This document shows positions 6,579 to 32,504 of a stretch of 64,000 nucleotides of DNA, in pieces. Source of the stretch: an uncultured Spartobacteria bacterium (GTDB lineage: Bacteria; Verrucomicrobiota; Verrucomicrobiia; Chthoniobacterales; Chthoniobacteraceae); the NCBI GenBank assembly GCA_903901425.1, contig CAIURC010000207.1, forward strand, positions 1 through 64,000, written 5' to 3'. The position numbers and the translations under genes are program-made. How positions within the stretch are numbered: position 1 is the stretch's first letter; every line of letters begins with the position of its first letter. The notes below the pieces were generated by a model that saw only the letters and a program-made list of their open reading frames with translations, did no database searches and was not told the DNA's origin.

Positions 6579-8044
6579 CAGAAAATGAAGTAGATGAAGG
6601 GGTTGTACTCCTGGGTGGCAAGGACCACGCAGGCGAGGGCGCCCAGAGCCAGACACGCCAGCACTTTGCCCAGAGTCAGACGCCGGGTCCAATCCCAGGT
6701 CTGGGGACAGCCCCAGACCACGGCGGCCGCCACTCCGAGCGCCAGAAACATCCAGGGCTGGAAAATCGCTCCACCGACCAGTGCCGCGCCCGGTCCCAGA
6801 GAGCGGGCACCGAGCATGTCCGCCAAGTAACCCCATGCGGCATCCAGATCCCGGGCCCGGAAAAACACCCAGCCCACTAGGACAACCCCGAAGGTGAAAC
6901 CGACCCTGAGCGCCCCGGGCAACTTCCCATAAACCGCGCCCCAACGCCTTTCGAGCGCGAGCATGCCTCCGTGCAACGCCCCCCAGAGAATAAAGTTCCA
7001 CGATGCACCGTGCCAGAACCCCCCAAGCACCATGGTCGCCATCAGGTTGAAATAGGTCCGGCCCGCCCCCAACCGGTTGCCCCCCAGAGGAATGTAAAGA
7101 TACTCCCGCAGCCAACTGGAGAGCGAGATGTGCCAGCGCCGCCAAAAATCGGTCACTGAATCCGCCCGGTAGGGAGAATCAAAATTTTTGGCGAAAAGGA
7201 ACCCGAACATGAGCCCCAGCCCGATGGCCATGTCGGAGTACCCGCTGAAATCGAAATAAATCTGAAAGGCGTAGCCGACTGCACCCGCCCATGCCTCGGC
7301 AAATCCGCGCGCACCCGCCTCAAATGCCGTGTCCGCAAGTTTGCCGCAGGGATTGGCCAGCAGGATTTTCTTGCCCAACCCCACCAGAAAAAATGCGGAT
7401 CCCCGGGCAAACTTGTCCAGAGTCAGGGTCCGCTCCCGGAGCTGCTCTGCCAGGAATGAGAACTTGAGAATCGGCCCCGCCACCAAATGGGGCAGCATCG
7501 AGACGAAACAGGAGAAATCCACGAAGTTTTCCATGGCCCGCGCATCGCCCCGGTAAACGTCCAGAATGTAACTGAGGGCTTGGAAAGTGTAAAAACTGAT
7601 GCCCAGCGGAAGGACCAGCCGCCAGGCCGGCTCCCATTGCGCCGACTCCATGCCAAACACCCGCATCAACCCATTCAATGTCTCCCGCCCAAAGTCAAAA
7701 TACTTGAACACCCCGAGGACCGTCAGATTGCTCACAACAGACCCCCGCAAGGCCCATTTTTGAAGCCGACTCCTGTCCCCGCCCGGCTCCAAAAGTTTTG
7801 CCTCCCCTTTCCAGCGCCAGAACCGCCAGTCGTTCCTGGCCAGCACGAGGCTCAAAAACCAGTCCAGGGAAGTCGTGGCAAACATCAATCCCACAAACCG
7901 CGGTTCCGCCCACCCATAAAAAGCGTACCCGGTGATGACCAACCACAGGTTCCGCATCCGCTGCGTGCTCCACCCCAGCAAATAATAGCCTAACAGGGTC
8001 AGCGGCAGAAAGTAGTAGAGAAAGATATGCGAGCTGAAAACCAT
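6578..8044 (-). CDS. MBOAT family membrane O-acyltransferase, AlgI-like
   Basis: A 488-residue multi-pass protein that would carry acetyl groups across the inner membrane for cell-surface glycan modification. It begins MVFSSHIFLYYFLPLTLLGY, as AlgI-type proteins do. The central motif YFDFSGYSDMAIGLGLMFGF and the catalytic-His segment GGFWHGASWNFILWGALHGG are intact, as is FWRRWHISLSSWLREYLYIPLGGN. It is first in a two-gene minus-strand operon with the AlgJ/AlgX-like gene (ATGA overlap), and its start faces the second AlgJ-like gene across a 90-base gap. This MBOAT-AlgJ pairing is the usual arrangement for alginate or related polymer acetylation. Confidence 0.93.
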   Translation of the reverse strand: MVFSSHIFLYYFLPLTLLGYYLLGWSTQRMRNLWLVITGYAFYGWAEPRFVGLMFATTSLDWFLSLVLARNDWRFWRWKGEAKLLEPGGDRSRLQKWALRGSVVSNLTVLGVFKYFDFGRETLNGLMRVFGMESAQWEPAWRLVLPLGISFYTFQALSYILDVYRGDARAMENFVDFSCFVSMLPHLVAGPILKFSFLAEQLRERTLTLDKFARGSAFFLVGLGKKILLANPCGKLADTAFEAGARGFAEAWAGAVGYAFQIYFDFSGYSDMAIGLGLMFGFLFAKNFDSPYRADSVTDFWRRWHISLSSWLREYLYIPLGGNRLGAGRTYFNLMATMVLGGFWHGASWNFILWGALHGGMLALERRWGAVYGKLPGALRVGFTFGVVLVGWVFFRARDLDAAWGYLADMLGARSLGPGAALVGGAIFQPWMFLALGVAAAVVWGCPQTWDWTRRLTLGKVLACLALGALACVVLATQEYNPFIYFIF

Positions 8045-8065
8045 TGTTCCCGGGAGAAACGAGGG

Positions 8066-8081
8066 CGGACCCTAGGGTCCG
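8066..8081. promoter_or_regulatory. Perfect 16-bp palindrome in the divergent acetylation-locus promoter region
   Basis: CGGACCCT/AGGGTCCG is a perfect 8+8 inverted repeat, in the centre of the 90-base gap between the divergent MBOAT and AlgJ-like genes. A plus-strand TAAAAT (8087-8092, five of six to TATAAT) lies six bases downstream, so the palindrome would cover the minus-35 region. Its symmetry and location suggest an operator shared by both arms; the binding protein is unknown. Confidence 0.4.
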
Positions 8082-8134
8082 GCGCCTAAAATTGAAAGTT
8101 GAATCCCCTACGCACGCCGATACTCTCCCCGCCC

Positions 8135-9208
8135 ATGCTGTCCCCGGCTCAACAACCGCCCCAAAAAAGCGCCCGCCGACGTCTCTCCGCGCGGCTGGCC
8201 CCGGTTCTTGGCGTACTTCTAGGCCTGTCGGCCCTTCAAAAAGCCGACGCCCAGGCCCCCACCCCCTTCCGCCCCTACTCGGAAACCGCCAAGTCCGCCG
8301 TGCTCCCAGGCAGGGAAGGCTGGTTGTTCCTCAGCTCAGAACTCCATTTCCTTTCCGCTCCGGAATTCTGGGGAGCAGCAGCCAGTGCCGTGTCCAAGGC
8401 CAGCAACCCCGACTGGGCGGATCCCCTTCCCGCGATCCTCGATTTCCACGCCCAGCTCAAGGCCCACGGGATCCAACTGCTCGTGGTTCCCGTTCCCCCA
8501 AAAGCCGCCCTCTATCCCGAGCAACTCCCGGCGCTCGAAGATTCCACCCCGGCCCCTACCCCGGGTCAGGTGCCTTCCCTGGCCGGATTTTACAAGGTCC
8601 TCGAGAAGGAAGGCGTGCAGGTGCTCGACCTGGTTCCTGTTCTCCTTGAAAACCGCAAATCCGAGCACGGCCCGGCGTTCTGCACCACCGATTCCCACTG
8701 GTCTGGAAATGCCTGCGTCCTCGCGGCCCAGGCCATTTCACAGAGAATTACGGCGCTTCTCCCGGCCAGCCTCCGGAACCCGTTCTCTGCGGAATGGAAA
8801 TCGGCCTCGTTCCGGGGCGACCTTCCAGATCTTCCCGGCGCGCCCGCCAGTGGATCCCCTCAGGAAACACTCCCGGTCCGCAGAATCCTCCATGAATCCT
8901 CCGGGGCAGTGTCTCCGGACCCCGACAGTCCGCTGTTGCTGATCGGAGACAGCCACACCCTCGTTTTCCACGATTTCCTCGCAGAAAACGCCGGGCTTCT
9001 CGACCAACTCGCATTTGAAACGGCCCTTGCCCCGGACCTCATCGGCACCCGCGGTTCGGGTGCCACTCCCGTCCGCATCAGCTTGCTCCGAAGGAGCGTC
9101 AAAGACCCGGGGTTTCTCTCCAAGAAAAAGGTGGTCGTCTGGTGCTTTTCCGCCCGGGAATTCACCGAATCCGAATCGGGCTGGCAGAAAGTGGCTGTCT
9201 CCCGATAG
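8135..9208 (+). CDS. Second AlgJ/AlgX-like SGNH-type O-acetylation protein
   Basis: A 357-residue predicted exported protein. A basic stretch and hydrophobic segment (RRRLSARLAPVLGVLLGLSA) end at ADAQA, a likely signal-peptidase site near residue 40. Family landmarks match the first copy: GREGWLFLSSE, LLVVPVPPKAALYP, CTTDSHWSG and LLLIGDSHTLVFHD (GDS nucleophile). It lacks the extra C-terminal beta domain of the minus-strand copy. A TTG at 8099 would extend it by 12 residues; I prefer the ATG at 8135 because it gives a cleaner signal peptide. It ends 11 bases before the FHA-SGNH gene, so the three plus-strand genes form one unit. Confidence 0.82.
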   Translation: MLSPAQQPPQKSARRRLSARLAPVLGVLLGLSALQKADAQAPTPFRPYSETAKSAVLPGREGWLFLSSELHFLSAPEFWGAAASAVSKASNPDWADPLPAILDFHAQLKAHGIQLLVVPVPPKAALYPEQLPALEDSTPAPTPGQVPSLAGFYKVLEKEGVQVLDLVPVLLENRKSEHGPAFCTTDSHWSGNACVLAAQAISQRITALLPASLRNPFSAEWKSASFRGDLPDLPGAPASGSPQETLPVRRILHESSGAVSPDPDSPLLLIGDSHTLVFHDFLAENAGLLDQLAFETALAPDLIGTRGSGATPVRISLLRRSVKDPGFLSKKKVVVWCFSAREFTESESGWQKVAVSR

Positions 9209-9219
9209 CTCAGAACCCG

Positions 9220-11292
9220 ATGGACTCCGTGGCTCCAGAATCGTTCCAACTCCGCTGCACCCTTCCGGATGGCCGCGAGCTCAAATTTACCATCGATTCT
9301 CCCGTGTTCACCATCGGCCGGGATTCCTCCAACCTCGCCCATGTCCCGGATTCGACCATCTCAAAAACCCATGCCGAAGCGCGGCAGATCGCCCCGGGCA
9401 GGGTCCGCATCAAAGACACGGACTCCCTGAACGGCGTGCGGGTAGACGGCAAACTCGTTCAGGAATGCGAACTGGACGCTCCCTGTTCCTTTCAACTGGC
9501 CACCATCCCATTCCACCTCTCCCTGGCAGCGCCCGCTGCCCCCGTGCGCCCACGCAGAAATCCTTTCACCCTCCTGCTACTTCTCCTCGTTCTTGCCGGT
9601 GTCGGCCTCGCAGGGTTCCAGCCGCGTCCCCCCGCCCCCCAGCCAAAAATCGGGTTCCATACCCCCGAGCTGGCCAAAATCCCGTCGGAACCCCTCCCGC
9701 TTCCCAGTTTCCGCGGCGTCGAACCGCTTCTGGTCGCCTCCGCGGCCGCTCTCTCTCCGGCACCCGCACCGGAGGCAACCAGCGAAATCCCGCCCACCGA
9801 GCCCACTCCCGCACCGGATCTCCCCGTATCCGCGGCTGAATCGGTGGCCCCGCCCCCTGCAACTCCCCCGAAAATTCTCCTTTCTGCTCAGCCCCCGCCT
9901 CCCCTTCCAGAACCCGAAACCCAGTCTGCATCCAGCGAAACTCCCGCGCCTGCACCCGCCCCCAGCGCTTCTGATGCGGCGTCCGCTCCGGAACCGTCCC
10001 CCGCAGTACCCACGCCTGCTGCTGCTGCTCCCGCTCTGGTTCCGTTTTTTCCTGCGTCTGAACCCAAACCGGTCACCGAGCCCCCCCCACCGGCGGCAAC
10101 GGAACCCGCCCCGAAAAAGAAAGGCGTAAAACCCCCGAAACCCGCACCAGCCAAAAATCTGACCGTTCTCATCCTTGGGGATTCCCTGAGCCTTTGCGGA
10201 TTTGGAAAACGTCTGGACTCGCGGTTCAGGCAGTCCAGTCAGGTCAAATCCACCTACACCTACATGGCCTGCGGGACCGTGCCGCTGAGCTGGATCAAAA
10301 CCCCTGGATACGCCCAAGCCAAGACATGCTGCGGTTTTTGGAGCATCGAACAGAACGGCTCCAAGACCAAGCAGACCCAGGACACCTACGGGATGACCAA
10401 AGGGTACAAACCCGGTTCCCACCCGATCCCCAAAATCGAGGAACTTCTGACTAAGCTGCGCCCAGACATCCTTGTGATCCAGACCGGCACCAATCTTTTC
10501 GGCCTTTTTCCCGACACCAAAACCATTCACGCGGACCGCCACGACAACCTGCTGCGCTCCCATATCGAACCCTTCCTCGCCCGGTTGCTCACCCCGGCCT
10601 CGCCCCTCCGCAAGATCTACTGGGTTGCGCCCCCCACCTCTGGCCGGGTCGCCGAACCCGTTCAGGAGTTCGTCTTCGACCGGTACGAAAAATATGCCAC
10701 GCCGGTGGTCACTCTGATCGATAGCCGCCCACTGATCTCGTTCCCGTACTCGGGAATGCAGCCGGACCGCGAACATTTCATGGGCGCGGATATGGACCGC
10801 TGGGCCGACCAAGTCTACGACCGGATTGCGGCTGATTTTGCGCAGTCCACCCCGCCGCTGCTCTCCAAGATCCCCGTAACCAAGGCAGTCCCGGTTTCGC
10901 TCGCGGCCCCCAAAGAAGCACCCGCCCCGGCCCCTCCGCAGAACACCCCAGTCACCCTCAAGGGCCGACTCCTTTTCAAATCGCCCCCACTTCAGACTGA
11001 GCAGTTGCTTCCGTACCAGGAGTCCCTTGCCGCATTTGTGTACGAGGTGGTTGGGGTCTCCTCAGGCCAGTACTCCGAAAAGGAGATCCTTGTCATGCAT
11101 CCCGCGCACATCCGGCTCGAGCCACAGTCCTTGGACTCCTTTCAGGTTGGCCAAACCTACGAACTCACGGTCCGGGACTTGGACAGTTCTCCCTGGGCTG
11201 CGATCAAGTCCAGCGATCAGACCGGAAAACCTGAACTCCTTCCCTTCATCCAGAGCATCGACGACAACCGCTTCCCCTCTCGCGGCAAGTAA
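9220..11292 (+). CDS. FHA-domain / SGNH hydrolase fusion with transmembrane and Pro-rich linker
   Basis: A 690-residue protein of unusual architecture. Residues about 10-100 form an FHA domain: TIGRD with Gly33-Arg34, SKTH at 48-51 and NG at 71-72 are the phosphopeptide-binding landmarks. One membrane span follows (about 114-133), then about 190 residues rich in Pro, Ala and Glu. An SGNH hydrolase domain comes next: LGDSLSLCGFG (block I), IQTGTNLFG (block III) and DREHF near the expected catalytic Asp/His. The last 110 residues resemble the extra C-terminal domain of the minus-strand AlgJ-like protein. The topology puts FHA in the cytoplasm and the esterase/transferase outside. The ATG at 9220 is the first in frame directly before the FHA domain. 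Function in polysaccharide acetylation is inferred from context. Confidence 0.85.
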   Translation: MDSVAPESFQLRCTLPDGRELKFTIDSPVFTIGRDSSNLAHVPDSTISKTHAEARQIAPGRVRIKDTDSLNGVRVDGKLVQECELDAPCSFQLATIPFHLSLAAPAAPVRPRRNPFTLLLLLLVLAGVGLAGFQPRPPAPQPKIGFHTPELAKIPSEPLPLPSFRGVEPLLVASAAALSPAPAPEATSEIPPTEPTPAPDLPVSAAESVAPPPATPPKILLSAQPPPPLPEPETQSASSETPAPAPAPSASDAASAPEPSPAVPTPAAAAPALVPFFPASEPKPVTEPPPPAATEPAPKKKGVKPPKPAPAKNLTVLILGDSLSLCGFGKRLDSRFRQSSQVKSTYTYMACGTVPLSWIKTPGYAQAKTCCGFWSIEQNGSKTKQTQDTYGMTKGYKPGSHPIPKIEELLTKLRPDILVIQTGTNLFGLFPDTKTIHADRHDNLLRSHIEPFLARLLTPASPLRKIYWVAPPTSGRVAEPVQEFVFDRYEKYATPVVTLIDSRPLISFPYSGMQPDREHFMGADMDRWADQVYDRIAADFAQSTPPLLSKIPVTKAVPVSLAAPKEAPAPAPPQNTPVTLKGRLLFKSPPLQTEQLLPYQESLAAFVYEVVGVSSGQYSEKEILVMHPAHIRLEPQSLDSFQVGQTYELTVRDLDSSPWAAIKSSDQTGKPELLPFIQSIDDNRFPSRGK

Positions 11293-11302
11293 CTTTCTCC
11301 CG

Positions 11303-12277
11303 ATGCGCCACGCACTCCTCGTTGCAGCCGTCTTTCTCTCCGCCCCCTTCGCGCTCCACGCTGCAAAACCGGCAAAAGCCCCCAGCCCAACTCCCGCTGG
11401 CAGCAACGTCATCCGACCCAACACTGCACCCGGGACACCCACGCCGCCGTCCCTTCAAAAACCCAAGACCGGGCAATCCCCGGCAGCAAAGCCGGTCGCA
11501 ACCCCTGCCCCGAGCTCAAAACCCGCATTGGCGCCGGGCAGCAAATCCGCAGCCACCCCTGGAAAACCTGTCCCCCCCCCTGCAACGCGCTCCTCCAAGC
11601 CGACCCCGGCGCCGCCCGGTTCGGCCAACTCCTCCCTGGTGCTGCTTATTGGAGACTCCCTCAGCGTCGGTCCGTTTGGGACCACCCTCCAGGATCTCCT
11701 CATCGCTCGACTCGGCTCCAAAGAAGTGGCCCTGTACGCATCCTGCGGCTCCTCACCCGAACACTGGCTCGCCTCCGAACCCGTCTACGAAACCCGGTGC
11801 GGTTACCGGGAAAAAACGCCGCGCAGCCAGAAGCTCATCGACTTCGTCAATGGCCGCCGCCCTCCCCCAGTCGCGACCCCGAAACTGGAGCGACTCCTCA
11901 AAATGCACGAACCCCGGTACGTGCTGATTCAGCTCGGGACCAACTGGATGGACGAATTCCAAAAACGAGTTTCAACCGAGAAAAAGGTCCAGAAATCGGC
12001 GATCCTTGACCGGTTTGCCGCAGCGCTGCGCGGCCGGATTGTGGTTTGGATCCTGCCCCCGGACTCGGCCCACTACTCTTCCTCGGCTCAGAACACCGTC
12101 CGCGAATTGATCCACCGCTGCGTGGTTCAGAATGGGTTCGCGGAAATTGACTCCAAAAAGTTGACCCGTTACCGGCGGGGCAAAACGGGCAGCGACGGCA
12201 TCCACTACAACGGCGAGGACGCCCGGGTCTGGGCCCAGGGCGTGATGGGCCAGCTCACCGGCAAATCCAGCCGTTAA
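11303..12277 (+). CDS. Exported SGNH/GDSL hydrolase with Ala/Pro/Lys-rich linker
   Basis: A 324-residue protein with a signal peptide (RHALLVAAVFLSAPFALHAA), a low-complexity Pro/Ala/Ser/Lys linker to about residue 110 and a compact SGNH domain. Visible blocks are LLIGDSLSVGPFG, LIQLGTNWMD and SDGIHYN, the last carrying the catalytic Asp and His. CGSSPEHW resembles CGTVPLSW in the preceding FHA-SGNH protein, which suggests the two are paralogues. The start at the ATG at 11303 lies 10 bases after the previous stop. It is probably a periplasmic deacetylase or acetyltransferase accessory of the same locus. Confidence 0.8.
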   Translation: MRHALLVAAVFLSAPFALHAAKPAKAPSPTPAGSNVIRPNTAPGTPTPPSLQKPKTGQSPAAKPVATPAPSSKPALAPGSKSAATPGKPVPPPATRSSKPTPAPPGSANSSLVLLIGDSLSVGPFGTTLQDLLIARLGSKEVALYASCGSSPEHWLASEPVYETRCGYREKTPRSQKLIDFVNGRRPPPVATPKLERLLKMHEPRYVLIQLGTNWMDEFQKRVSTEKKVQKSAILDRFAAALRGRIVVWILPPDSAHYSSSAQNTVRELIHRCVVQNGFAEIDSKKLTRYRRGKTGSDGIHYNGEDARVWAQGVMGQLTGKSSR

Positions 12278-12367
12278 ATCCGCCGCTCAAATGGCTTCCC
12301 CCCAAGAGCGCTGCCAGTTCATATTGTTTCCGGTTGCACTGTCCCCGTTTTGGGGGCTGTACCTCTT

Positions 12368-12441
12368 GCGCTCGTAGCTCAGCTGGATAGAGCAACGGAT
12401 TTCTAATCCGTTGGTCGTGGGTTCGAATCCCGCCGGGCGCA
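12368..12441 (+). tRNA. tRNA-Arg (anticodon TCT)
   Basis: A full cloverleaf folds by eye: acceptor GCGCTCG/CGGGCGC with one G-T pair, D-arm GCTC/GAGC, anticodon stem ACGGA/TCCGT with loop TTTCTAA, and T-arm GTGGG/CCCGC with TTCGAAT. The anticodon TCT reads AGA/AGG. The discriminator base is A, and CCA is not encoded. Confidence 0.96.
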
Positions 12442-12492
12442 CTTCCATCCCGCCGCTCCCCACCTTCCACCAGCCCCTCCTGAGCGGCCTCC

Positions 12493-14421
12493 TCAGGCCT
12501 TGCGCCCAAACTTTTTTTCCAACTCCAGATACCCAATCTGGATCATCGTGGGCCGGCCATGTGGACAGCAGTACGGCAACTCACATGCCAGCAGATCCCT
12601 GAGCAACCGGACCAATTCGGGCTGCCGCAGATCGTCATTGGCCTTCACCGCGTGACGGCACACCGTCTTGGCAATCATGTCCTCCCCCAGACGCAGCCGG
12701 GCGTTCTCCTGCGAAGCCTCCTGCAACTCATCCACAATGCCCCGGACCAACTGCAGGGGGTCGCCCCCCTTCAAAAAGGTCGGCAGCGTGTCGATTTTGA
12801 ACGTACCGCCCCCGAAGGGTTCCAGGACAATCCCCGCGCGCTCCAGCAGCTCCAAGTTCCGCATCAGCCAGTCGCTATCGCGCGGACTGACCTGCAGGTT
12901 CAGAGGCAACAACAACCGCTGGGCGGGCACTCCCTGGACCTCCATCTGGCGCTTCATCCGCTCGTACAAAATCCGTTCATGGGCCGCGTGTTGGTCCACC
13001 AACACCAAGCCATCCCGGTTTTCCATGAGCACATACAACCGGCCCAGCACCCCCAAAATTTTGAACTCCAGACTCGGATCCCGGCCCGCTTCCGGCACCT
13101 GCTCACGCCCCGGGTCGGCTGCCGATCCCGCTCCTTCCACCCGCGTTTGAACCGTTGCCGCCGGCTCCGGCTCGGGTACCGCCAACTGCCCTGAATCCTC
13201 GTCCGCCGGTTGGCCCGGATCCCGCGTCTCTGGATTCGACGCGGCAGCCTCCGCTTCCACGGGCCTGAGCGGCAACTCGGCCCAATCCCTCCTTAGAGCC
13301 AGTTGCTCTTCCGGGGGGATCAGTGCGGGCTGGAACTCAGCCGGCTGCACGGTCTCTGGCACACCCGGCGGCACCGTGGGACGAAACCCGCTGAAGCCCT
13401 CCGGCCTCAGCGCCGCACTCCAGGTGGCCCGGTCGGTCTCAAGGGCAGCCCGCACCGCCTGCACGACGGCCTCCCGCACAAAGTTCCCATCCCTAAACCG
13501 GACCTCGCGCTTTGCCGGATGCACATTCACGTCCACCTCGGCGGGATCCATTTCGATGAACAGGTAGGTCACCGGATGCTGCCCCTTCATGAGGGCCGTG
13601 TGGTACCCCTCCCGCAAACCCACGTTCAAAACTGGATTCTCCACCGGTCGCCCGTTGAGAAAAACCAGTTGCTGCTGCCGCCCCGACCGGCTCACCCCCG
13701 CCTTCCCCACATACCCCCAGACCCGGAATCCTTCCCGCTCAAAAAGCGGCACCTCCAGAAGTTCGGCTGCCGCCGGGGCTCCGCGCAGATCCCGGATCCG
13801 CTCCAGAAGCGTGGCCGCCGCCGGCAGTTGAAAAACCACGCGGTCCTCCGAGACCAGGGTGAACCCGACTCCGGAATGCCCCAGCGCCTGGAGCTCCATC
13901 TGGTGCTCCACATGGCTGAACTCTGTGGACTCGGTGCGCAAAAACTTCCGTCGGGCGGGCAGGTTGAAAAACAGGGAGCGGACCTCCACCTGCGTTCCCG
14001 GAGGTTCCCCGCAGTCCCGGACAGTTTCGAGGCGGCCACCGGCCACCAGCACCTCGGTGCCTGCCAACGCACCATGTTCGCGGGTGGCGAGCCGGAACTT
14101 TGAAACACTCGCAATGCTCGGAATTGCCTCGCCGCGGAAACCCAGGGTCGCAATGGCTGCAAGATCGGCCCCGGACCGGATTTTGCTGGTCGCATGGCGC
14201 TCCAGGCAAAGAAGGGCGTCATCCCGGTCCATGCCGCAGCCGTTGTCCGTCACCCGGAGATAGGAGATGCCGCCGCGGCGCACCACGACCTCGACGCGGG
14301 AAGCGTTGGCATCCAAGGCGTTCTCTACGAGTTCCTTGACCACCGATGCAGGACGCTCCACGACCTCCCCGGCTGCAACCTGGGACGCCACCTCCTCTGA
14401 GAGCAATGCGATGCGCGACAC
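12493..14421 (-). CDS. mutL: DNA mismatch repair protein MutL (endonuclease type)
   Basis: A 642-residue GHKL ATPase that links mismatch recognition to strand removal. The N-terminal ATP site shows ELVENALDA, DNGCGMDRDD, RHATSKI and GFRGEAIPSIAS. A variable Pro/Glu-rich linker (about 350-450) leads to the C-terminal dimerisation domain. That domain keeps DQHAAHERILYE, which fits the DQHA-x2-E-x4-E metal-binding motif, plus CRHAVKANDD and CCPHGRPT. It should therefore nick DNA itself, as MutL does in bacteria lacking MutH. It is convergent with tRNA-Arg and divergent from the Fe-S carrier gene, 72 bases away. Confidence 0.97.
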   Translation of the reverse strand: MSRIALLSEEVASQVAAGEVVERPASVVKELVENALDANASRVEVVVRRGGISYLRVTDNGCGMDRDDALLCLERHATSKIRSGADLAAIATLGFRGEAIPSIASVSKFRLATREHGALAGTEVLVAGGRLETVRDCGEPPGTQVEVRSLFFNLPARRKFLRTESTEFSHVEHQMELQALGHSGVGFTLVSEDRVVFQLPAAATLLERIRDLRGAPAAAELLEVPLFEREGFRVWGYVGKAGVSRSGRQQQLVFLNGRPVENPVLNVGLREGYHTALMKGQHPVTYLFIEMDPAEVDVNVHPAKREVRFRDGNFVREAVVQAVRAALETDRATWSAALRPEGFSGFRPTVPPGVPETVQPAEFQPALIPPEEQLALRRDWAELPLRPVEAEAAASNPETRDPGQPADEDSGQLAVPEPEPAATVQTRVEGAGSAADPGREQVPEAGRDPSLEFKILGVLGRLYVLMENRDGLVLVDQHAAHERILYERMKRQMEVQGVPAQRLLLPLNLQVSPRDSDWLMRNLELLERAGIVLEPFGGGTFKIDTLPTFLKGGDPLQLVRGIVDELQEASQENARLRLGEDMIAKTVCRHAVKANDDLRQPELVRLLRDLLACELPYCCPHGRPTMIQIGYLELEKKFGRKA

Positions 14422-22943: not shown

Positions 22944-23159
22944 TCAGTCCCGCTTCAGAAGCGCTGCACGTTGGCTCTCATATTCCGCCCCGGTGATTGC
23001 CCCCGATTTCTTGGCCTTTTGCAGATCCATCAACTCCATCCCGACGGTGGGTCGCTTGGCCGTTTCGTGGACCGCCACCACGCAGCCGCCACTCGCAAAA
23101 CCAGCGGCCAAAAGACCGGCCACTCCAAACACACTCCAAATCGCTGAAAGGTTTTTCAT
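22944..23159 (-). CDS. Small SHOCT-type lipoprotein
   Basis: A 71-residue protein with a signal sequence and lipobox-like FASGGC near residue 26. The C-terminal 30 residues (MELMDLQKAKKSGAITGAEYESQRAALLKRD, in part) form the short amphipathic SHOCT motif, where LxxLxxxGxITxxEYExxK recurs. SHOCT is often attached to membrane or lipoprotein sequences; its precise role is not known. The start ATG at 23159 is chosen because an 18-residue extension upstream has no signal character. It lies upstream of the DUF2807 lipoprotein gene in the same direction and may share its transcript. Confidence 0.7.
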   Translation of the reverse strand: MKNLSAIWSVFGVAGLLAAGFASGGCVVAVHETAKRPTVGMELMDLQKAKKSGAITGAEYESQRAALLKRD

Positions 23160-23707
23160 AACTACACCCCTATTCGCGGAAGACTCGTGTCTGGTTACAC
23201 CCAAAACCAAAAAACAGAAGGATCGCCGAAACGCTGCTGAGAAACCCGCCAGGATTCAGGAAAGGCCGACAGAAAGGCGCATCCGCCCCGGCAGAACGAA
23301 TCAGCTCCTTGGAGTTGACCCCGTTTCAGCGACTCGAGTTGGCCGATTCTCGAGCGAACCTTCCCATAAACGCACAATGGTTCCGTGGGCGCTCTCCGGG
23401 GAGCTTCCTCGCACCGAGCGATCAGGCCGCGTTTCAATGGTGCGACGACCTCATGACCATCTATGTGGAACAACACCTTCCCCAATTGGGGATTGGGGCT
23501 CAGGGTTCCACAAAGCCCCGTTCGGATCCATTCAGGCCCTCAACACTGCGGCCCGAGGCTTCCTCTCGTTCAACAACGCACGGATTCGGATCCCGTTTTT
23601 CCGCGAGCGCCCAATCTTCACCCAGGATTCTCCGTGAAGAGCACAAAATTCGAGTACGCCCAATGCATGGATTGATCCGCCCGTTGGGTTTAACATAATC
23701 AAAACCT
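23160..23707. other. 548-base stretch with no convincing gene
   Basis: Several frames stay open here on both strands, but none has a recognisable domain, a start context or a conserved-looking composition. It contains the self-similar AATTGGGGATTGGGG (around 23486). It forms the left flank of the atypical three-gene cassette. It may be a decayed copy of a dispersed element. Confidence 0.5.
23672..23699 (+). promoter_or_regulatory. Promoter of the ADP-ribosylglycohydrolase cassette, probably leaderless
   Basis: TTGATC (23672-23677) and CATAAT (23694-23699) are 16 bases apart, matching four and five of six consensus bases. The minus-10 element ends only eight bases before the ATG at 23708, so transcription would begin at or within a base or two of the start codon. 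Confidence 0.45.
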
Positions 23708-24730
23708 ATGAATTTCTCGTGCATCCTCGGTTCCCTGCTCGGGACAGCCGTGGGTGACGCCCTCGGGCTTCCATATGAAGGCTTGTCTCGCAAGCGAGTG
23801 GCCGCGTTAGGAAAAATCCGGCATCGGTTTCTCTTCGGCAGAGGCATGTTCAGTGACGACACTGAGCACACCCTGATGCTCGCTGCGGCGATGCACGGGC
23901 ACCGTGACGATGTGAACGCTTTTCAGCGGAGTTTTGCATGGAAGCTCCGCTGGTGGCTGCTTGGCCTGCCCGCGGGCGTGGGCCTGAGCACGGCAAAAGC
24001 GATTTTTCGCCTCTGGCTCGGTTTTCCACCACAAAAAGCGGGCGTTTCCTCCGCCGGAAACGGCGCGGCGATGCGCAGTGCGATTGTGGGCGTGTTTTGG
24101 GCGGATGACATTGCCAAGCGTCACGCGTTTGCTCTTGCGGCCTGCCGTGTCACGCACACCGATCCTCGCGCTGAAGAATCGGCCCTCCTTGTTGCAGAGG
24201 CAGCTGCGCTGGCAGTAAATCGGGTTCCAACAGCCGAGTCCTTGGATCGCCTCCGCCCCCTTGTGAAGTCGGTGATCATGAAAGAGCAATTCCAGATCCT
24301 CGAGCAGGCTTTGACGGAGGGAAATAGCGTCCACGAGTTCGCGACCCGAGTCGGATGTGAATGCGGTGTCAGTGGATTTGCGCCTCGCACCGTCGCAGTT
24401 GCCCTTTACTCGTGGTTGCGGCACCGGGGCGATTTTGCAACTGCTGTTCGCTCCGTGATCGAATGTGGAGGCGACACGGACACCGTTGCAGCGATCACCG
24501 GAGGCATCTCAGGCGCCGAGGTCGGGAAGGCTGGAATCCCACGCGAATGGATGGACCGCATCTGCGATTGGCCAGTCTCGGTCGGACACATTTGCGAGGT
24601 CGCGACAGCACTCGCGGACAACTCTCCGCAGACACCGTGCGTCTCCTGGCTGTTTGTACGGATCCGAAATTTCTTTTTCCTCGCCGTTGTGCTTTTGCAT
24701 GGTTTCCGCCGTTTGCTGCCACCTTATTAG
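23708..24730 (+). CDS. ADP-ribosylglycohydrolase (ARH/DraG family)
   Basis: A 340-residue member of the family that removes ADP-ribose from proteins or small molecules using two Mg ions. It begins with GSLLGTAVGDALGLPYEG, the family N-terminus. The metal ligands are visible in MFSDDTEHTLM (Ser49-Asp50-Asp51-Thr52) and ECGGDTDTVAAITGGISGA (Asp256, Asp258, Thr259); AGNGAAMR also fits. The last 30 residues end in a hydrophobic stretch (RNFFFLAVVLLHGFRR), so the enzyme may be peripheral to a membrane. It leads a cassette with an SPFH protein (36 bases on) and an NAD-kinase-like protein, which points to NAD or ADP-ribose metabolism. Confidence 0.9.
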   Translation: MNFSCILGSLLGTAVGDALGLPYEGLSRKRVAALGKIRHRFLFGRGMFSDDTEHTLMLAAAMHGHRDDVNAFQRSFAWKLRWWLLGLPAGVGLSTAKAIFRLWLGFPPQKAGVSSAGNGAAMRSAIVGVFWADDIAKRHAFALAACRVTHTDPRAEESALLVAEAAALAVNRVPTAESLDRLRPLVKSVIMKEQFQILEQALTEGNSVHEFATRVGCECGVSGFAPRTVAVALYSWLRHRGDFATAVRSVIECGGDTDTVAAITGGISGAEVGKAGIPREWMDRICDWPVSVGHICEVATALADNSPQTPCVSWLFVRIRNFFFLAVVLLHGFRRLLPPY

Positions 24731-24766
24731 CTCCCGCACCTGATCCAACCTCTACTCAAGAAAACC

Positions 24767-25792
24767 ATGCTTGGCCTTCGGTTCATCAAAATACCGCCTA
24801 CGACCCACGTCATTCAATACAGCGGCGGCAAAGTCGTCCGCGAAGGCGCGGGCATCTCGTTCTTCTACTACTCACCGACCACCTCGCTTGTGGCGGTGCC
24901 GGTTGGCAGCACGGACATGCCTTTTATTTTTGAGGAACAGACGGCGGATTATCAGAGCGTGAGCCTCCAAGGGCAGATCACTTACCGCATCGCCGAACCG
25001 AAGAAACTGGCGGCGCTGATGGACTTCACGCTTGATCCGAGCGGCCGCGGTTATGCCTCCGAAGATCCAGAGAAACTACCACAGCGCGTCATCAATCTCG
25101 TGCATGTGCTTGCGCGTGCGGAGATCGAAAAACTACCGCTCCGCCAGGCATTGAGAGCCTCGGAGCCGCTTGTTTCCGCGATCCGCAGCCAGCTCTGCAC
25201 CTCGGCAGAACTGGCAGCCCTTGGACTTGAGGTGCTTGGCCTCTCGCTGCTGGCCATCAAACCAACCCCGGAGACCGCGCGTGCGCTGGAAGCGGAAACG
25301 CGTGAACAACTGCTCAAAGGTGCAGACGAGGCCATTTTCATGCGTCGCAACGCCGCAGTCGAACAGGAGCGTGCAATCAAAGAGAATGAACTGAACACCG
25401 AGATCGCCGTGGAAAACAAGAAGCGGCAGATCCGCGAGACCCAGATGGACGCGGAAAAGGCCGTCCAAGAAAAAGAGGCCCAACTCGAGCATGCAAAGCT
25501 CGAAACGAACATTGGACTGGAAGAGGAGCGCAAGAAACTCGTCGCCCTCGCCGCGGAAAATGCCAAAGCCGAGTCCGACACCCGCGCCTACGGCATCTTG
25601 AAGACCATGCAGGCGCTTTCGAGTGCAGATGCGAGCGTTCTACAAGCACTTGCCACAACCGGCATGAAGCCGCAGCAACTCATCGCCTTTGCCTTCCAGG
25701 AACTCGCCGCCAAAGCCGAAAAGATCGGCAATCTGAACATCTCACCGGAACTCCTGAGCGAACTGCTTGCGAATCCGGGTGGCAAAAAGTGA
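24767..25792 (+). CDS. SPFH/Band 7 domain protein
   Basis: A 341-residue scaffold protein. Residues about 10-180 form the SPFH domain (KIPPTTHVIQYSGGKVVREG, SVSLQGQITYRIAEPKKL and ALGLEVLGLSLLAIKPTPET). Residues about 200-270 are a long charged coiled coil (ETREQLLKGADEAIFMRRNA, then Glu/Lys-rich repeats), and the end is helical. There is no N-terminal membrane segment, unlike HflK or flotillin. Such proteins form ring or cage oligomers. It lies between the ADP-ribosylglycohydrolase and the NAD-kinase-like gene, 36 and 16 bases away, so it is probably the organising subunit of the cassette. Base use differs from the C-rich neighbours. Confidence 0.88.
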   Translation: MLGLRFIKIPPTTHVIQYSGGKVVREGAGISFFYYSPTTSLVAVPVGSTDMPFIFEEQTADYQSVSLQGQITYRIAEPKKLAALMDFTLDPSGRGYASEDPEKLPQRVINLVHVLARAEIEKLPLRQALRASEPLVSAIRSQLCTSAELAALGLEVLGLSLLAIKPTPETARALEAETREQLLKGADEAIFMRRNAAVEQERAIKENELNTEIAVENKKRQIRETQMDAEKAVQEKEAQLEHAKLETNIGLEEERKKLVALAAENAKAESDTRAYGILKTMQALSSADASVLQALATTGMKPQQLIAFAFQELAAKAEKIGNLNISPELLSELLANPGGKK

Positions 25793-25808
25793 TGACCGAA
25801 GTCATCTC

Positions 25809-26747
25809 ATGCACCGACTCACAGAAACCAAGATCATCCTCGTGGTTCGGGCAACGAGGCTGGCGGATTTGAAGGCAAAGTTTGCGACGAAATCGCAAGC
25901 CCGCTTTTACGTCAGCCGGTTGGGGGGTGATTTTGGCGACTACGAGCGCGAGGATGCGAAGTATCAAAATGCCATCCAGCAGACCCAGCACACTCTGAGC
26001 GAATTGGGACGCGTGCAACTGGTTCAACGATCCTTTCTCCCAAACTTTGTGTTCGGCTCCAAGGACATCGTGGTTGCACTCGGACAGGATGGTCTGGTGG
26101 CGAACATTTTGAAGTATCTCGACGGCCAGCCGCTCGTCGGTGTGAATCCTGATCCAGAGCGCTATGATGGCCAGCTTCTGCCCTTCCATCTGAAGAATCT
26201 TGACCCGGTCATGCGCGAGGTCCTGCGTGGCAGCCGTCCCAAACGCGAAGTGACTATGGCCGAGGCAAGCCTAAACACCGGCCTGAGCCTACGCGCTGTC
26301 AACGATCTCTTTATCGGCATGAAGTCCCATGGATCAGCGCGTTACAGGATCACTCTGGGCAAGGCGGCAGAGAATCATTCATCGAGCGGAGTGATTGTCT
26401 CGACCGGGCTCGGCTCGACAGGCTGGTTCAAGAGTCTCATGGCAGGAGCATCGGCCGTTGCCATGGCTGCCGGACGCGCCGCAAGCCTGCCGCAGAAAGA
26501 GACAAGCTTTCCCTGGGAGGCCGGACACCTCTACTTCACCGTGCGCGAGCCGTTTCCAAGCAACACCACGGGGGCCGGGCTGGTCTTTGGAAAAGTGACT
26601 CCGCAGCAGCCGCTCGTCATCGAATCGCAGATGAGTGAGAATGGGGTCATCTTTAGCGACGGCATCGAACAGGACTTCATCGAGTTCAATTCGGGCACCA
26701 AGGCCACCATCACCCTCGCGAAACGCAAGGGAAGGGTGGTTGTGTGA
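25809..26747 (+). CDS. Divergent NAD-kinase-like protein
   Basis: A 312-residue protein with the NAD/diacylglycerol-kinase fold signatures in altered form. FGSKDIVVALGQDGLVANIL (Gly92-Gln93-Asp94-Gly95) replaces the usual GGDGT loop but keeps the catalytic Asp. VIVSTGLGSTGWFKSL (199-205) replaces TPTGSTAY. FPWEAGHLYFTVREPFPS and SDGIEQDFIEF complete the C-terminal beta domain. The start at the ATG at 25809 is 16 bases after the SPFH stop; upstream in-frame codons would overlap SPFH. Its substrate could be NAD, a derivative or a sugar; the changed glycine loop makes ordinary housekeeping NADK activity less certain. It is the third gene of the cassette. Confidence 0.78.
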   Translation: MHRLTETKIILVVRATRLADLKAKFATKSQARFYVSRLGGDFGDYEREDAKYQNAIQQTQHTLSELGRVQLVQRSFLPNFVFGSKDIVVALGQDGLVANILKYLDGQPLVGVNPDPERYDGQLLPFHLKNLDPVMREVLRGSRPKREVTMAEASLNTGLSLRAVNDLFIGMKSHGSARYRITLGKAAENHSSSGVIVSTGLGSTGWFKSLMAGASAVAMAAGRAASLPQKETSFPWEAGHLYFTVREPFPSNTTGAGLVFGKVTPQQPLVIESQMSENGVIFSDGIEQDFIEFNSGTKATITLAKRKGRVVV

Positions 26748-28665: not shown

Positions 28666-29985
28666 ATGCCCCTGAACACTCCGCTTCCCATGACACATCC
28701 CAAAACGATGGCACCCGTTTCACGCCGCAATTTTCTGCGCGCCACCGGGATTGGTCTGAGCCTTCCCTGGATTGAAAGCCTGCTCCCAAAAACGCTCCAC
28801 GCCGCTTCCAACCCGGAAGCGCCGCGCCGCATGGTCTGCATCATGACCAACATGGGCGTGGTCCCCCAAAATTTTTTCCCAAAAACTGCCGGTGCAAATT
28901 ACGAAACCACGCGCTACCTGCAGGTCCTCCATGAACACCGCTCCCGGTTCACCGTCTTCAGCGGCCTCTCCCATCCCGGCGTCTCCGGGGCGCATCTGAC
29001 TGAAAAGTGTTTTCTCAGCGCGGCGCCCGGGCCCGGCGACAGCCATTTCCGAAACACCATCTCGGTGGATCAGTTTGCCGCTGAAAAAATCGGCCGACAA
29101 ACCCGGGTTCCTTCCCTCGTCCTCATGGTCGGAAAACGGGACCTGGGTCTCCCTTCGGTAACCCGGGACGGTGTGAGCATTCCGCCCGAATCGGATCCGG
29201 CAGCCCTCTACCGCAGACTCTTTCTCCAAGGTTCTCAAGCTGAAGTGGCTCAGAAGATCTCCGAACTCCAACGCGGACGCAGCCTTCTGGATTTTGTCCG
29301 GGCCGAAGCCGGAACACTCCGGACCAAGATCGGCGCGCGGGACAAGGAACGCATCGACCAGTATTTCACTTCTATCCGGGACATGGAACAGTCGCTTCAG
29401 GCCGCTGAGGCATGGGAAAACCGGCCGAAACCGAAGGTCGCATTTCCAGAGCCGAAATCGGTACCCGACGATGTGCAGATTGAGGAGCAGACCAACCTGA
29501 TGTACGACCTGCTGGCGCTTGCGCTCCAGACGGACAGCACCCGGATTGCAAGCGTGTACCTTGGCCCCCTGCTGATCACCCCCAAGATCCAGGGTGTAAC
29601 CAACCAGACCCACGGACTCACGCATCACGGGGGCAATCCCGACAAGATCGAGCAGCTCAGCAAGATTGAGGAAACCCAGTTCCGCTGCCTCAACCGATTG
29701 CTCACCGGCCTCCATTCTGTCCGGGAACCGGGCGGCACCTTGCTCGACCACACCCAACTCCTCTACGGATCCAATCTCGGGAACGCCAATTCCCATGAAA
29801 CCTCCAACCTCCCCATTCTGTTTGCCGGGGGCGGCTTCCGGCACGGTCAACACCTGGCTTTTGACCGCAAAAACAACACGCCACTCGCCAACCTGTTTGT
29901 CACCATGCTCCAGCGTCTGAACCTCGAGGCGGACCGGTTTGCCTCCAGCACCGGCACCCTGACCGGATTGGAGGTGCAGGCATGA
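28666..29985 (+). CDS. DUF1552 family secreted protein (Tat signal)
   Basis: A 439-residue protein. SRRNFLRATGIGLSLPWIES is a twin-arginine signal, followed by PRRMVCIMTNMGVVPQNFFP, YLQVLHEHRSRFTVFSGLSHP and TQLLYGSNLGNANSHETSNL, all landmarks of DUF1552. The family usually accompanies DUF1592/1588-type cytochromes; its biochemical role is not established. The first ATG (28666) gives a short leader before the Arg pair; an ATG at 28690 is an alternative. Its stop overlaps the start of the cytochrome gene. It is co-oriented and close-packed with the sigma and anti-sigma-like genes. Confidence 0.88.
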   Translation: MPLNTPLPMTHPKTMAPVSRRNFLRATGIGLSLPWIESLLPKTLHAASNPEAPRRMVCIMTNMGVVPQNFFPKTAGANYETTRYLQVLHEHRSRFTVFSGLSHPGVSGAHLTEKCFLSAAPGPGDSHFRNTISVDQFAAEKIGRQTRVPSLVLMVGKRDLGLPSVTRDGVSIPPESDPAALYRRLFLQGSQAEVAQKISELQRGRSLLDFVRAEAGTLRTKIGARDKERIDQYFTSIRDMEQSLQAAEAWENRPKPKVAFPEPKSVPDDVQIEEQTNLMYDLLALALQTDSTRIASVYLGPLLITPKIQGVTNQTHGLTHHGGNPDKIEQLSKIEETQFRCLNRLLTGLHSVREPGGTLLDHTQLLYGSNLGNANSHETSNLPILFAGGGFRHGQHLAFDRKNNTPLANLFVTMLQRLNLEADRFASSTGTLTGLEVQA

Positions 29986-32504
29986 AAACCCGTTTCCTCT
30001 GGCTGACACAGACGTTCCTCCTGCTCTCTCTTCCCGCAGACGCCTCCGATTATCTCGAAAAATACTGCCTCGACTGTCACGACAGCGATTCGCGCAAAGG
30101 CGGCCTCGATCTCTCCAAGACTCAGTCTGACATCCACGCCGCGTTTGACACCTGGCTCAAGGTTCACGACCGGATTGCCTCCGGAGAAATGCCGCCCAAA
30201 AAAAAGTCCCGCCCCCCGGCCAACGAAACCAGCCAGATCTTGGACTCCCTCGGAAAACGCCTTCTCGCCGAGGACCTTCAACGCCGCGAATCCGAAGGCC
30301 GCGCCACTTTCCGCCGCCTCACCCGGACCGAATACCAGAACACACTCCGCGACCTGCTCGAACTCCCCCACCTCGACATCGCCGAACTCCTGCCTCCGGA
30401 CGGACAACGGGCCGGGTTCGACAAACTGGGCGAGGCTCTTGACCTGTCCGAGATCCAACTCCAGCAGTATTTGGCTGCCGCGCAACGGGCACTCTCCGCC
30501 GCCGCCTGCACCCAGGCCGATCCTCCACCCGTTCTAAAACAGCGCCTTTACCCAAACTGGATCAAGTTTGCCCAGGCCCTTCAGGGCGGTGACGCGCTCC
30601 TCCTCAAAGGACTCCAACCCGACCCGCAATTTGCCCTCGTCCCTACCGAGAAGAATCACAAAAAAAACCGGTTCGACGACAACGGCATCTCCCGCGAGGA
30701 ATTTGTAAAATCCAACACCCAACCCGTTGGCATCATCCGCGCCAGCGATCCGAGCAAATACCGAAGTTTCAGCTTTGCCGCGCCGGCCGATGGACTCTAC
30801 CGGCTCCGCGCCTCCTCATGGAGCTTCCTCCTGGATCAACAGAAAATCCGCCCCAACGATCGCACCGAGGTCGCTGCGCTCTGGAGCGGGAACCGCCTTC
30901 TCGGCTATTTCGACGCCCCGTCGCTCAAGCCCACCGTCCACGAATGGACCGCCCCACTTGAGAAAGGAGATGGCGTCCGGTTCGAAACCGAAACTGTCCG
31001 GCACGCCCAGAAAGACATCGCCCTCTACACCGGCCCGGGTATTGCCATTGAATGGGTGGAAGTCGAAGGCCCCCTCCACTCCCAGTGGCCACCTGCCAGC
31101 CACAGGGTCCTGTTTGGCGACCTGCCCCTCCATTCCACCTCGCTTCAGGATAAAACCCACAAAGCAGGTTCCGGGAAAAAAACCGGCGTCACCAACCAGG
31201 AAACCGCAACGGTGGTTTCCAAGAACCCGTCCGGGGATGCCACCGCTCTTCTCGCGCGGTTCCTCCCAAAAGCGTTCCGCCGGCCCGCTACGCCCGGGGA
31301 AGTCGACCGGTACAAAACCATCGTGGAGACAGAACTCAAGACCGGCGCCTCCTTTGAAAGCGCCATGCTTGAAGCGTACAAAACCGCTCTCTGCTCCCAC
31401 CATTTCCTGTTCCGGGTGGAGCAGAAAGGTGCCTTGGAGGGGCCTGCCCTGGCCGCGCGCCTTGCATTCTGGCTCTGGAACTCGGCGCCGGATGCCGAGT
31501 TGCTCAAGGCGGGCGCTACCGGGGAACTTGCCCAACCCAAGGCCCTTGCACTGCAGGTTGAACGTCTCCTGAAAGATCCCCGGGCAGAACGCTTCCAACG
31601 GGACTTTCTAGACCAGTGGCTCAACCTTCAAAAACTGAACGACACCACCCCCGACCGTGAACTTTACCCGGAATTCAACCATCACCTCCAAGACAGCATG
31701 GCGGCCGAATCAAGGGCGTACTTTCAGGAATTGATCCAGCGCAACCTTGGGGTGGACCACGTGGTGTCCGGCGATTTTGCCATGCTCAACGGCGCGTTGG
31801 CCGCCCTCTACCAAATCCCCAACGTGGACGGCCATGCCATCCGCAGGGTGCCGCTTCCCAAGGACAGCGTCCGGGGCGGCTTCATTGCACAGGCCGCGCC
31901 GCTCAAGGTCACGGCGAACGGCACCACCACCTCGCCCGTGGTCCGCGGAGCATGGTTCAATGAACGCATCCTCGGATTGCCTCTGCCACCGCCTCCCCCC
32001 AATGTTGGGGCGGTCGAACCTGACACCCGGGGCGCCACCACCATCCGCGAACAACTCGAAAAACATCGGCGGGATGTTTCCTGCGCCGCATGCCATGAAC
32101 GCATCGATCCCCCAGGATTCGCCCTCGAATCCTTTGATGTCATCGGCGGGTTCCGCTCCCATTACAGATCCCTCGGAACCGGCACCCCGGTCTCACTCTT
32201 TGTCCGGGACGGAAACCATCCCCCGAAATACAAAACCGGTCCCGCTGTCGACAGCGCAGGGACACTGCCCAACGGACAAGCTTTCAAGGATGTCACCGGA
32301 CTCCGCAACCGGCTTCTGGCCAACCGCGATCTCCTCGCAAAAAACCTGCTCACCCATCTGCTCATCTACGCCACCGGATCCGAGATCCATTTTGCAGACC
32401 GGCCCGCACTCCAAAAGCTCGTCGACCAATCCCGGGGGCAAAACCACGGCATCCGTTCCATGATCCATCTCATTGCCCAAAGCGATCTGTTCAAAAACAA
32501 GTAG
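29982..32504 (+). CDS. DUF1592/DUF1588-type planctomycetal cytochrome C protein
   Basis: An 840-residue secreted protein with a signal peptide (KTRFLWLTQTFLLLSLPADA). The first haem-binding-like motif is YCLDCHDSDSRKGGLDL near residue 27-40. FRRLTRTEYQNTLRDLLEL marks the DUF1587 region, and FLPKAFRRPATPGEVDRY marks DUF1595. HHFLFRVEQKG...ARLAFWLWNSAPD marks DUF1592. SVRGGFIAQAAPLKVTANGT and PVVRGAWFNERILG mark DUF1588, with CAACHERIDPPGFALESFD as a second CxxCH, and DUF1585 at the end. It is probably periplasmic and part of a polymer-degradation or redox apparatus typical of the PVC group. The start overlaps the DUF1552 stop (ATGA). Confidence 0.92.
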   Translation: MKTRFLWLTQTFLLLSLPADASDYLEKYCLDCHDSDSRKGGLDLSKTQSDIHAAFDTWLKVHDRIASGEMPPKKKSRPPANETSQILDSLGKRLLAEDLQRRESEGRATFRRLTRTEYQNTLRDLLELPHLDIAELLPPDGQRAGFDKLGEALDLSEIQLQQYLAAAQRALSAAACTQADPPPVLKQRLYPNWIKFAQALQGGDALLLKGLQPDPQFALVPTEKNHKKNRFDDNGISREEFVKSNTQPVGIIRASDPSKYRSFSFAAPADGLYRLRASSWSFLLDQQKIRPNDRTEVAALWSGNRLLGYFDAPSLKPTVHEWTAPLEKGDGVRFETETVRHAQKDIALYTGPGIAIEWVEVEGPLHSQWPPASHRVLFGDLPLHSTSLQDKTHKAGSGKKTGVTNQETATVVSKNPSGDATALLARFLPKAFRRPATPGEVDRYKTIVETELKTGASFESAMLEAYKTALCSHHFLFRVEQKGALEGPALAARLAFWLWNSAPDAELLKAGATGELAQPKALALQVERLLKDPRAERFQRDFLDQWLNLQKLNDTTPDRELYPEFNHHLQDSMAAESRAYFQELIQRNLGVDHVVSGDFAMLNGALAALYQIPNVDGHAIRRVPLPKDSVRGGFIAQAAPLKVTANGTTTSPVVRGAWFNERILGLPLPPPPPNVGAVEPDTRGATTIREQLEKHRRDVSCAACHERIDPPGFALESFDVIGGFRSHYRSLGTGTPVSLFVRDGNHPPKYKTGPAVDSAGTLPNGQAFKDVTGLRNRLLANRDLLAKNLLTHLLIYATGSEIHFADRPALQKLVDQSRGQNHGIRSMIHLIAQSDLFKNK

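Follow-up and report, generated by a model that had tools for sequence, protein, structure and literature searches.

An SPFH and NAD-kinase-like gene pair in an apparently laterally acquired Spartobacteria cassette, and its probable place in NAD and ADP-ribose recycling

The recycling of NAD has been regarded as well mapped, and NrtR is established as an ADP-ribose-sensing repressor of NAD genes; the NrtR regulons of NAD metabolism were reportedly described by Rodionov and colleagues in 2008. Here we analyze a stretch of 64,000 nucleotides from an uncultured Spartobacteria bacterium (GenBank assembly GCA_903901425.1, contig CAIURC010000207.1, positions 1 to 64,000), referred to below as the window. 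It contains a cassette of three adjacent genes that encode an ADP-ribosylglycohydrolase (ARH), an SPFH/Band-7 protein and a protein with the fold of NAD kinases (NADK), here termed NADK-like. We read the cassette as a laterally acquired piece of a NAD/ADP-ribose recycling module, with SPFH and NADK-like as its core and the kinase-like enzyme held by an SPFH assembly, and give this reading a probability of roughly 0.6. The protein families are known; the widespread pair formed by SPFH and NADK-like is apparently undescribed.

We know of no SPFH partner for human mitochondrial NADK2, the closest solved relative of the NADK-like protein by both sequence profile and fold. NADK2 (PDB 7r4j-m and 7n29) and the NADK-like protein both have the DPxR, NE/D, SSG and TGxGSxxW features, but they are only about 20% identical and NADK2 reads GGDGT where the NADK-like protein reads GQDGL. 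The cassette SPFH protein has the same fold and long helix as bacterial SPFH proteins (HflK/C, QmcA and stomatin-like proteins) and the vault protein. Unlike HflK/C, QmcA and stomatin-like proteins, it has no obvious N-terminal membrane helix and is nearly always paired with an NADK-like protein. The ARH has the fold and metal motifs of the DraG/ARH family, from which it differs in a conserved hydrophobic C-terminal tail ending LPPY and in lacking a cassette-encoded ADP-ribosyltransferase partner. Among described gene clusters, NrtR regulons, in which NrtR senses ADP-ribose (PMC6800001), resemble loci of the pair in that NrtR stands beside PncA, PncB, NadE, NadM and NadV and in having palindromic operator-like sites. 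They differ in that the window genome lacks NrtR, and the NrtR literature searched names neither SPFH nor NADK-like members. In ARG-centric host systems, ARH is accompanied by a Nudix or WYL regulator along with phosphatases and chaperones (PMC9503650, section 3.8). Clusters of the pair share with them ARH and an NrtR-like regulator, and sometimes a macro domain, whereas the ARG-centric systems carry phosphatases and chaperones and neither SPFH nor NAD kinase appears in the text of that paper. Of these features the window genome has ARH and no NrtR; WYL regulators, phosphatases and chaperones were searched there only in part. No paper in the literature searched joins SPFH with NrtR or nicotinamidase or describes the pair; several likely papers lie outside that search.

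Relatives of the NADK-like protein were collected in one scan of GTDB genomes, which gave at least 576 candidate loci. By record titles, the best 80 of these belong to Verrucomicrobiota, Pseudomonadota, Bacillota, Acidobacteriota, Chloroflexota, Planctomycetota, Spirochaetota, Lentisphaerota, Calditrichota and others, and loci of the pair span at least ten phyla. Plasmids contribute 71 further NADK-like loci, mostly from Rhizobium. The SPFH gene is directly 5' of the NADK-like gene in 91 of the 92 loci showing both, and in 75 the two overlap or are no more than 40 bp apart; in the sole exception (L018) the two are about 1.5 kb apart. SPFH and NADK-like are a near-obligate pair, present in several hundred bacterial species. 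This pair is the conserved unit, with ARH among several partners that vary from locus to locus. Thus, of the three-gene order singled out in a first-pass annotation of the window, the SPFH-NADK-like part is kept across genomes, whereas ARH is immediately 5' of the pair in only a few Verrucomicrobia and also occurs apart from it.

On resistance plasmids (Moraxella, uncultured AST2 and Aeromonas; L024 7001-9862, L027 6144-9607 and L029 3914-6091) either the whole NADK-like gene or only its 3' end directly adjoins tetR(H)-tet(H), and the SPFH gene may be complete, truncated or missing. On these plasmids the cassette appears to have traveled with tet(H) and to have decayed along the way.

The neighbors of the pair were counted around 93 loci with a fixed panel of families of NAD and ADP-ribose metabolism. 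We found 88 matches in the inner zone (up to 4 kb; 654 kb) and 3 in the outer zone (5-9 kb; 463 kb), a roughly 20-fold higher density, for loci that are not phylogenetically independent; 40 of the 93 loci have a match within 4 kb and two have one at 5-9 kb. A Pfam tally without preselection (150 neighbors, 59 loci) put NUDIX (20), NrtR_WHD (15) and ADP_ribosyl_GH, i.e., ARH (8), among the leading families and also included isochorismatase (5) and CTP_transf_like (4). Recurring neighbors are NrtR, nicotinamidase (PncA), NAPRTase (PncB), NadD, NadE, NadM, NadV, Nudix, macro, PARG and KptA. In Chthoniobacter flavus (L011) the order is NadE, isochorismatase (PncA-like), ARH, NrtR, ARH, microbial PARG, ARH, SPFH, NADK-like. 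The pair is preceded by DUF4291, macro-like, KptA, ARH and ARH in L012, and by NrtR, ARH, KptA and macro in L030, a Verrucomicrobiaceae metagenome-assembled genome. Other loci add PncB, NadD, NadM, NadV with a PRS-like gene, and a NudE-like gene. The best reading of these neighbors is that they place the pair in the NAD-recycling machinery, and they support the handling of NAD or ADP-ribose suggested by the first-pass annotation. Two of the further partners that it named, Nudix and macro, recur; the third, an ADP-ribosyltransferase, has no gene in the cassette.

NrtR with a winged helix is encoded in 33 of the 93 loci (NadM and NrtR profiles cross-match via their common Nudix domain and were separated by a winged-helix test). 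On plasmids of Rhizobium, Methylomonas, Providencia and Moraxella a NUDIX gene is divergently upstream of the pair, and Pfam NrtR_WHD was identified in all three of those tested (Rhizobium, Methylomonas, Providencia). Of 12 divergent nrtR-SPFH regions, 6 contain sites of the form TAGTKN(7-9)MACTA, nine in all compared with 0.02 expected from flanking DNA, and none occurs in the 56 loci without NrtR. In three of the regions (L020, L076 and L097) two such palindromes are exactly 22 bp apart. The sites fall in Rhizobium, Bradyrhizobium and Gallionella/Nitrosomonadales genomes and, judged by sequence, these proteobacterial palindromes are probable NrtR boxes.

Several points weigh against placing the pair in NAD recycling. 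Roughly one locus in two, among them all 17 from Paenibacillaceae, has no NAD neighbor within 4 kb. The panel behind the 20-fold contrast was partly picked from families seen near the pair, a choice that does not affect the Pfam tally. Because the palindrome was counted in the sequences that supplied its pattern, it is supportive evidence but no independent test; its carriers represent about three clades. In addition, the window genome lacks NrtR and has no TAGTKN(7-9)MACTA box upstream of the cassette; only ARH is still linked to the pair there, and control must therefore differ. The loci without NAD neighbors would also suit ordinary vertically inherited genes whose neighbors are there by chance. 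To this we give almost no weight, given the contrast between inner and outer zones, the conservation of the pair across phyla and a discordance with HisG identity (see below).

The NADK-like protein has no Pfam match, and its matches to NCBIfam NAD kinases are weak. A phmmer search relates it to human NADK2 (2e-8), and its AlphaFold model (pLDDT 90.8) has the NADK fold, with human NADK2 as best Foldseek match (7.4e-20, TM 0.73) followed by bacterial NADKs. The second Gly of the GGDG donor-site loop is Gln in 38 and Arg in 3 of 41 aligned sequences and Gly in none, whereas the Asp is present in all 41; GQDGL is also found in a 34%-identical branch of Roseomonas and Streptomyces sequences. The final Leu of this loop is less odd because alphaproteobacterial NADKs can read GGDGL (PMC8553519). 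Residues vital in the Mycobacterium tuberculosis NADK are Asp85 (GGDG), Asn159 and Glu160 (NE/D), Thr200 and Tyr202 (PMC8553519). Their counterparts in the NADK-like protein are Asp94, Asn165, Asp166, Thr204 (>90%) and Trp206; NADK2 likewise has Trp at the last of these positions, and the SSG motif is also NADK2-like. Elsewhere, the window genome encodes an ordinary NADK (GGDGT, TPTGSTAY), and 28 of 32 other carriers of the NADK-like gene have one above the Pfam cut-off, which rules out the NADK-like protein as the sole NAD kinase of the cell. The genome of L030 (G378) has no NAD_kinase_C match above the Pfam cut-off, although a contig may be missing. Given a coexisting canonical NADK and a changed donor loop, the NADK-like protein is an extra one and its donor pocket is probably changed.

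We propose that the NADK-like protein binds a NAD-type dinucleotide. Because the donor loop differs whereas the residues essential in the M. tuberculosis enzyme are either retained or substituted in the NADK2 manner, our best guess, a tentative one, is that it transfers a phosphoryl group from an altered donor to the adenosine ribose of NAD(H) or ADP-ribose. A sensor of NAD(P) or ADP-ribose, or a pseudoenzyme, whose dinucleotide binding switches the assembly state of SPFH, e.g., to hold or release a target, would fit the absence of Gly from the donor loop, the coexisting canonical NADK and the near-obligate SPFH partner. Retention of the catalytic-base Asp, Asn, second Asp, Thr and aromatic residue, most of them invariant, is not needed in a pseudoenzyme, and we consider a sensor rather unlikely.

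In the single-chain AlphaFold model of the SPFH protein, the SPFH domain is followed by a long helix (residues 168-285), and Foldseek matches include stomatin, HflK/C, erlin, prohibitin and vault. No obvious membrane helix was identified in the sequence or the model. A soluble SPFH protein of this kind is predicted to assemble into a ring or cage; in the recycling module it would bind the NADK-like protein, with the pair under NrtR control. As ADP-ribose from NAD turnover builds up, NrtR would release its operators, and salvage enzymes (PncA, PncB, NadD, NadE or NadV, and NadM) would be made. The same release would lead to production of enzymes that free or hydrolyze ADP-ribose (ARH, PARG, macro and Nudix) and of the SPFH-NADK-like pair. 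A more specific version, which we regard as doubtful, makes the pair a widespread and so far undescribed enzyme assembly of bacterial NAD metabolism. The kinase, its donor site rebuilt, would be held in an SPFH cage and would produce or use up a phosphorylated derivative of NAD or ADP-ribose that ordinary NADK does not make. If the pair does function in recycling, its tie to NrtR and to nearly every enzyme of NAD salvage and ADP-ribose metabolism would make it an overlooked component of this process, and soluble bacterial SPFH proteins would gain a concrete metabolic partner.

The ARH family profile is accompanied by metal-binding Asp motifs, GDALG (Asp17), SDDTEH (Asp50/51) and GGDTDT (254-259), that are conserved across the subfamily. 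A hydrophobic tail ending RRxxPPY is, by alignment, the hallmark of a Verrucomicrobial ARH subfamily and is possibly a membrane or SPFH docking segment. PPY-tailed ARHs were identified with or without the pair in L011, L012, L036, L040, L044, L133 and L135; the one in L133 lacks the pair and adjoins NrtR. As the subfamily occurs without the pair, we infer that ARH and the pair are two parts from one pool. Another subfamily member without the pair is in L134, in the cluster NadE-NrtR-PncA-x-KptA-Nudix-ARH, and its tail ends differently. Between PncA and KptA in L134 (3959-5197) is a 412-aa protein without a Pfam match, the N-terminus of which is SPFH-like by eye only.

KptA is encoded in L012, L030 and L134, and Hen1-Pnkp adjoins the pair in L063. 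These could indicate RNA end healing, in which the pair would act with KptA/Tpt1 and Hen1-Pnkp on 2'-phosphate or ADP-ribosylated RNA ends and NAD recycling would be secondary. Only a handful of loci are involved, NrtR and salvage genes are far commoner, and we consider this highly improbable. The repair function raised in the first-pass annotation is thus a minor theme, visible in few loci and not dominant. In L063, a Clostridia genome, the pair is between an NrtR-like gene with a PRK06922-type methyltransferase and the Hen1-Pnkp RNA repair cassette (whole region, 5069-14048). A protein of 113-121 aa (LYRPVGPKELALIE...) is encoded directly 5' of KptA in L030 (2510-2851) and further upstream in L012 (2923-3288); the L030 copy has no Pfam match.

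ARH recurs together with macro domains and Nudix regulators of the NrtR type, as in the proposal of PMC9503650, and the cassette is mobile and patchy. Both are also consistent with a conflict system centered on ARH, which would strip host molecules of ADP-ribose attached by phages or toxins. PADLOC gave no match at E<=0.1 for the three cassette proteins, and only scattered matches, with no coherent defence system, among the 150 neighbors. Searches of phages and viral contigs found no relatives. Furthermore, most pairs have no ARH, many are beside biosynthetic NAD genes, and the proposal itself mentions neither SPFH nor NAD kinase. An anti-phage function, one of the roles suggested by the first-pass annotation, is therefore not supported. 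The role proposed for other ARH-NrtR clusters is possible for this cassette, and overall we judge a conflict system improbable.

There is good evidence that the cassette moved laterally, as the first-pass annotation had supposed. Its closest relative is L030, with SPFH 94% and NADK-like 84% identical to those of the window, whereas HisG of L030 is only 66% identical and HisG of members of the same family (C. flavus and others) is 80-84% identical. In C. flavus, SPFH (71%) and NADK-like (68%) are less similar, so that the order is reversed relative to HisG, and the NADK-like tree groups the window with L030. Carriage is patchy, in 10 of 97 genomes (including that of the window, and one weak match) and in 7 of 289 across the phylum (including the window genome, and three weak matches); among the 97, none of the three other genomes of the same genus is a carrier. 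These three have two genes up to 22028 in common with the window and nothing recognizable beyond, although one contig ends soon after. A clean empty site was sought in them and no junction was readable.

Composition also points to transfer. Against 21 plus-strand genes of the window, whose C content is 0.337-0.419, the cassette genes reach only 0.279-0.302 (z -3.4 to -4.5); their GC content is 57.5-59.6%, compared with 62.6%. Synonymous codon use is unusual for the ARH gene only (z 2.2) and not for the SPFH gene. The low C on the coding strand reported earlier was thus recovered for all three genes, and the anticipated odd codon use for one. The plus strand is richer in C than G throughout the window, and this bias nearly vanishes at the cassette; the weakest skew of all 64 kb is in the 3-kb interval at 23751. 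A search for repeats bounding the cassette gave weak, chance-like matches only.

The three genes are arranged head to tail (Table 1), with intergenic gaps of 36 bases (ARH/SPFH) and 16 bases (SPFH/NADK-like), and encode proteins of 340, 341 and 312 aa. Outside the cassette, the nearest called genes begin near positions 23159 (minus strand) and 27046. This layout with gene-free flanks, the family assigned to each gene, the long helical part of SPFH and the two NADK-like motif readings all agree with the first-pass annotation.

Table 1. Features of the cassette, in window coordinates.
Feature	Position	Strand	Basis and remarks
Weak promoter-like hexamers	23672..23699	+	just 5' of the ARH gene; 2 found, 0.7 expected by chance; no evidence of function
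ADP-ribosylglycohydrolase (ARH/DraG family)	23708..24730	+	Pfam ADP_ribosyl_GH 2e-61; alignment to solved ARHs
ARH C-terminal hydrophobic tail ending RRLLPPY	24641..24727	+	conserved in six aligned ARHs; also in ARHs of G008 and G041
SPFH/Band-7 protein	24767..25792	+	Pfam Band_7 2e-15; AlphaFold pLDDT 80.7; Foldseek
NADK2-like protein (NAD-kinase fold)	25809..26747	+	profile match to human NADK2 1.8e-15; AlphaFold; Foldseek
GQDGL, altered GGDG donor-site loop (second Gly to Gln; Asp94 kept)	26082..26096	+	41-sequence alignment
Asn165-Asp166, NE/D motif of NAD kinases	26301..26306	+	Asn and Asp invariant in alignment A3
STGLGSTGW, counterpart of TPTGSTAY, closer to NADK2 (CTGTGSKAW)	26400..26426	+	sequence comparison

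Elsewhere in the window, the gene at 29982-32504 belongs to a family that matched 25 times in the window genome; five of the six relatives searched gave 10-33 matches.

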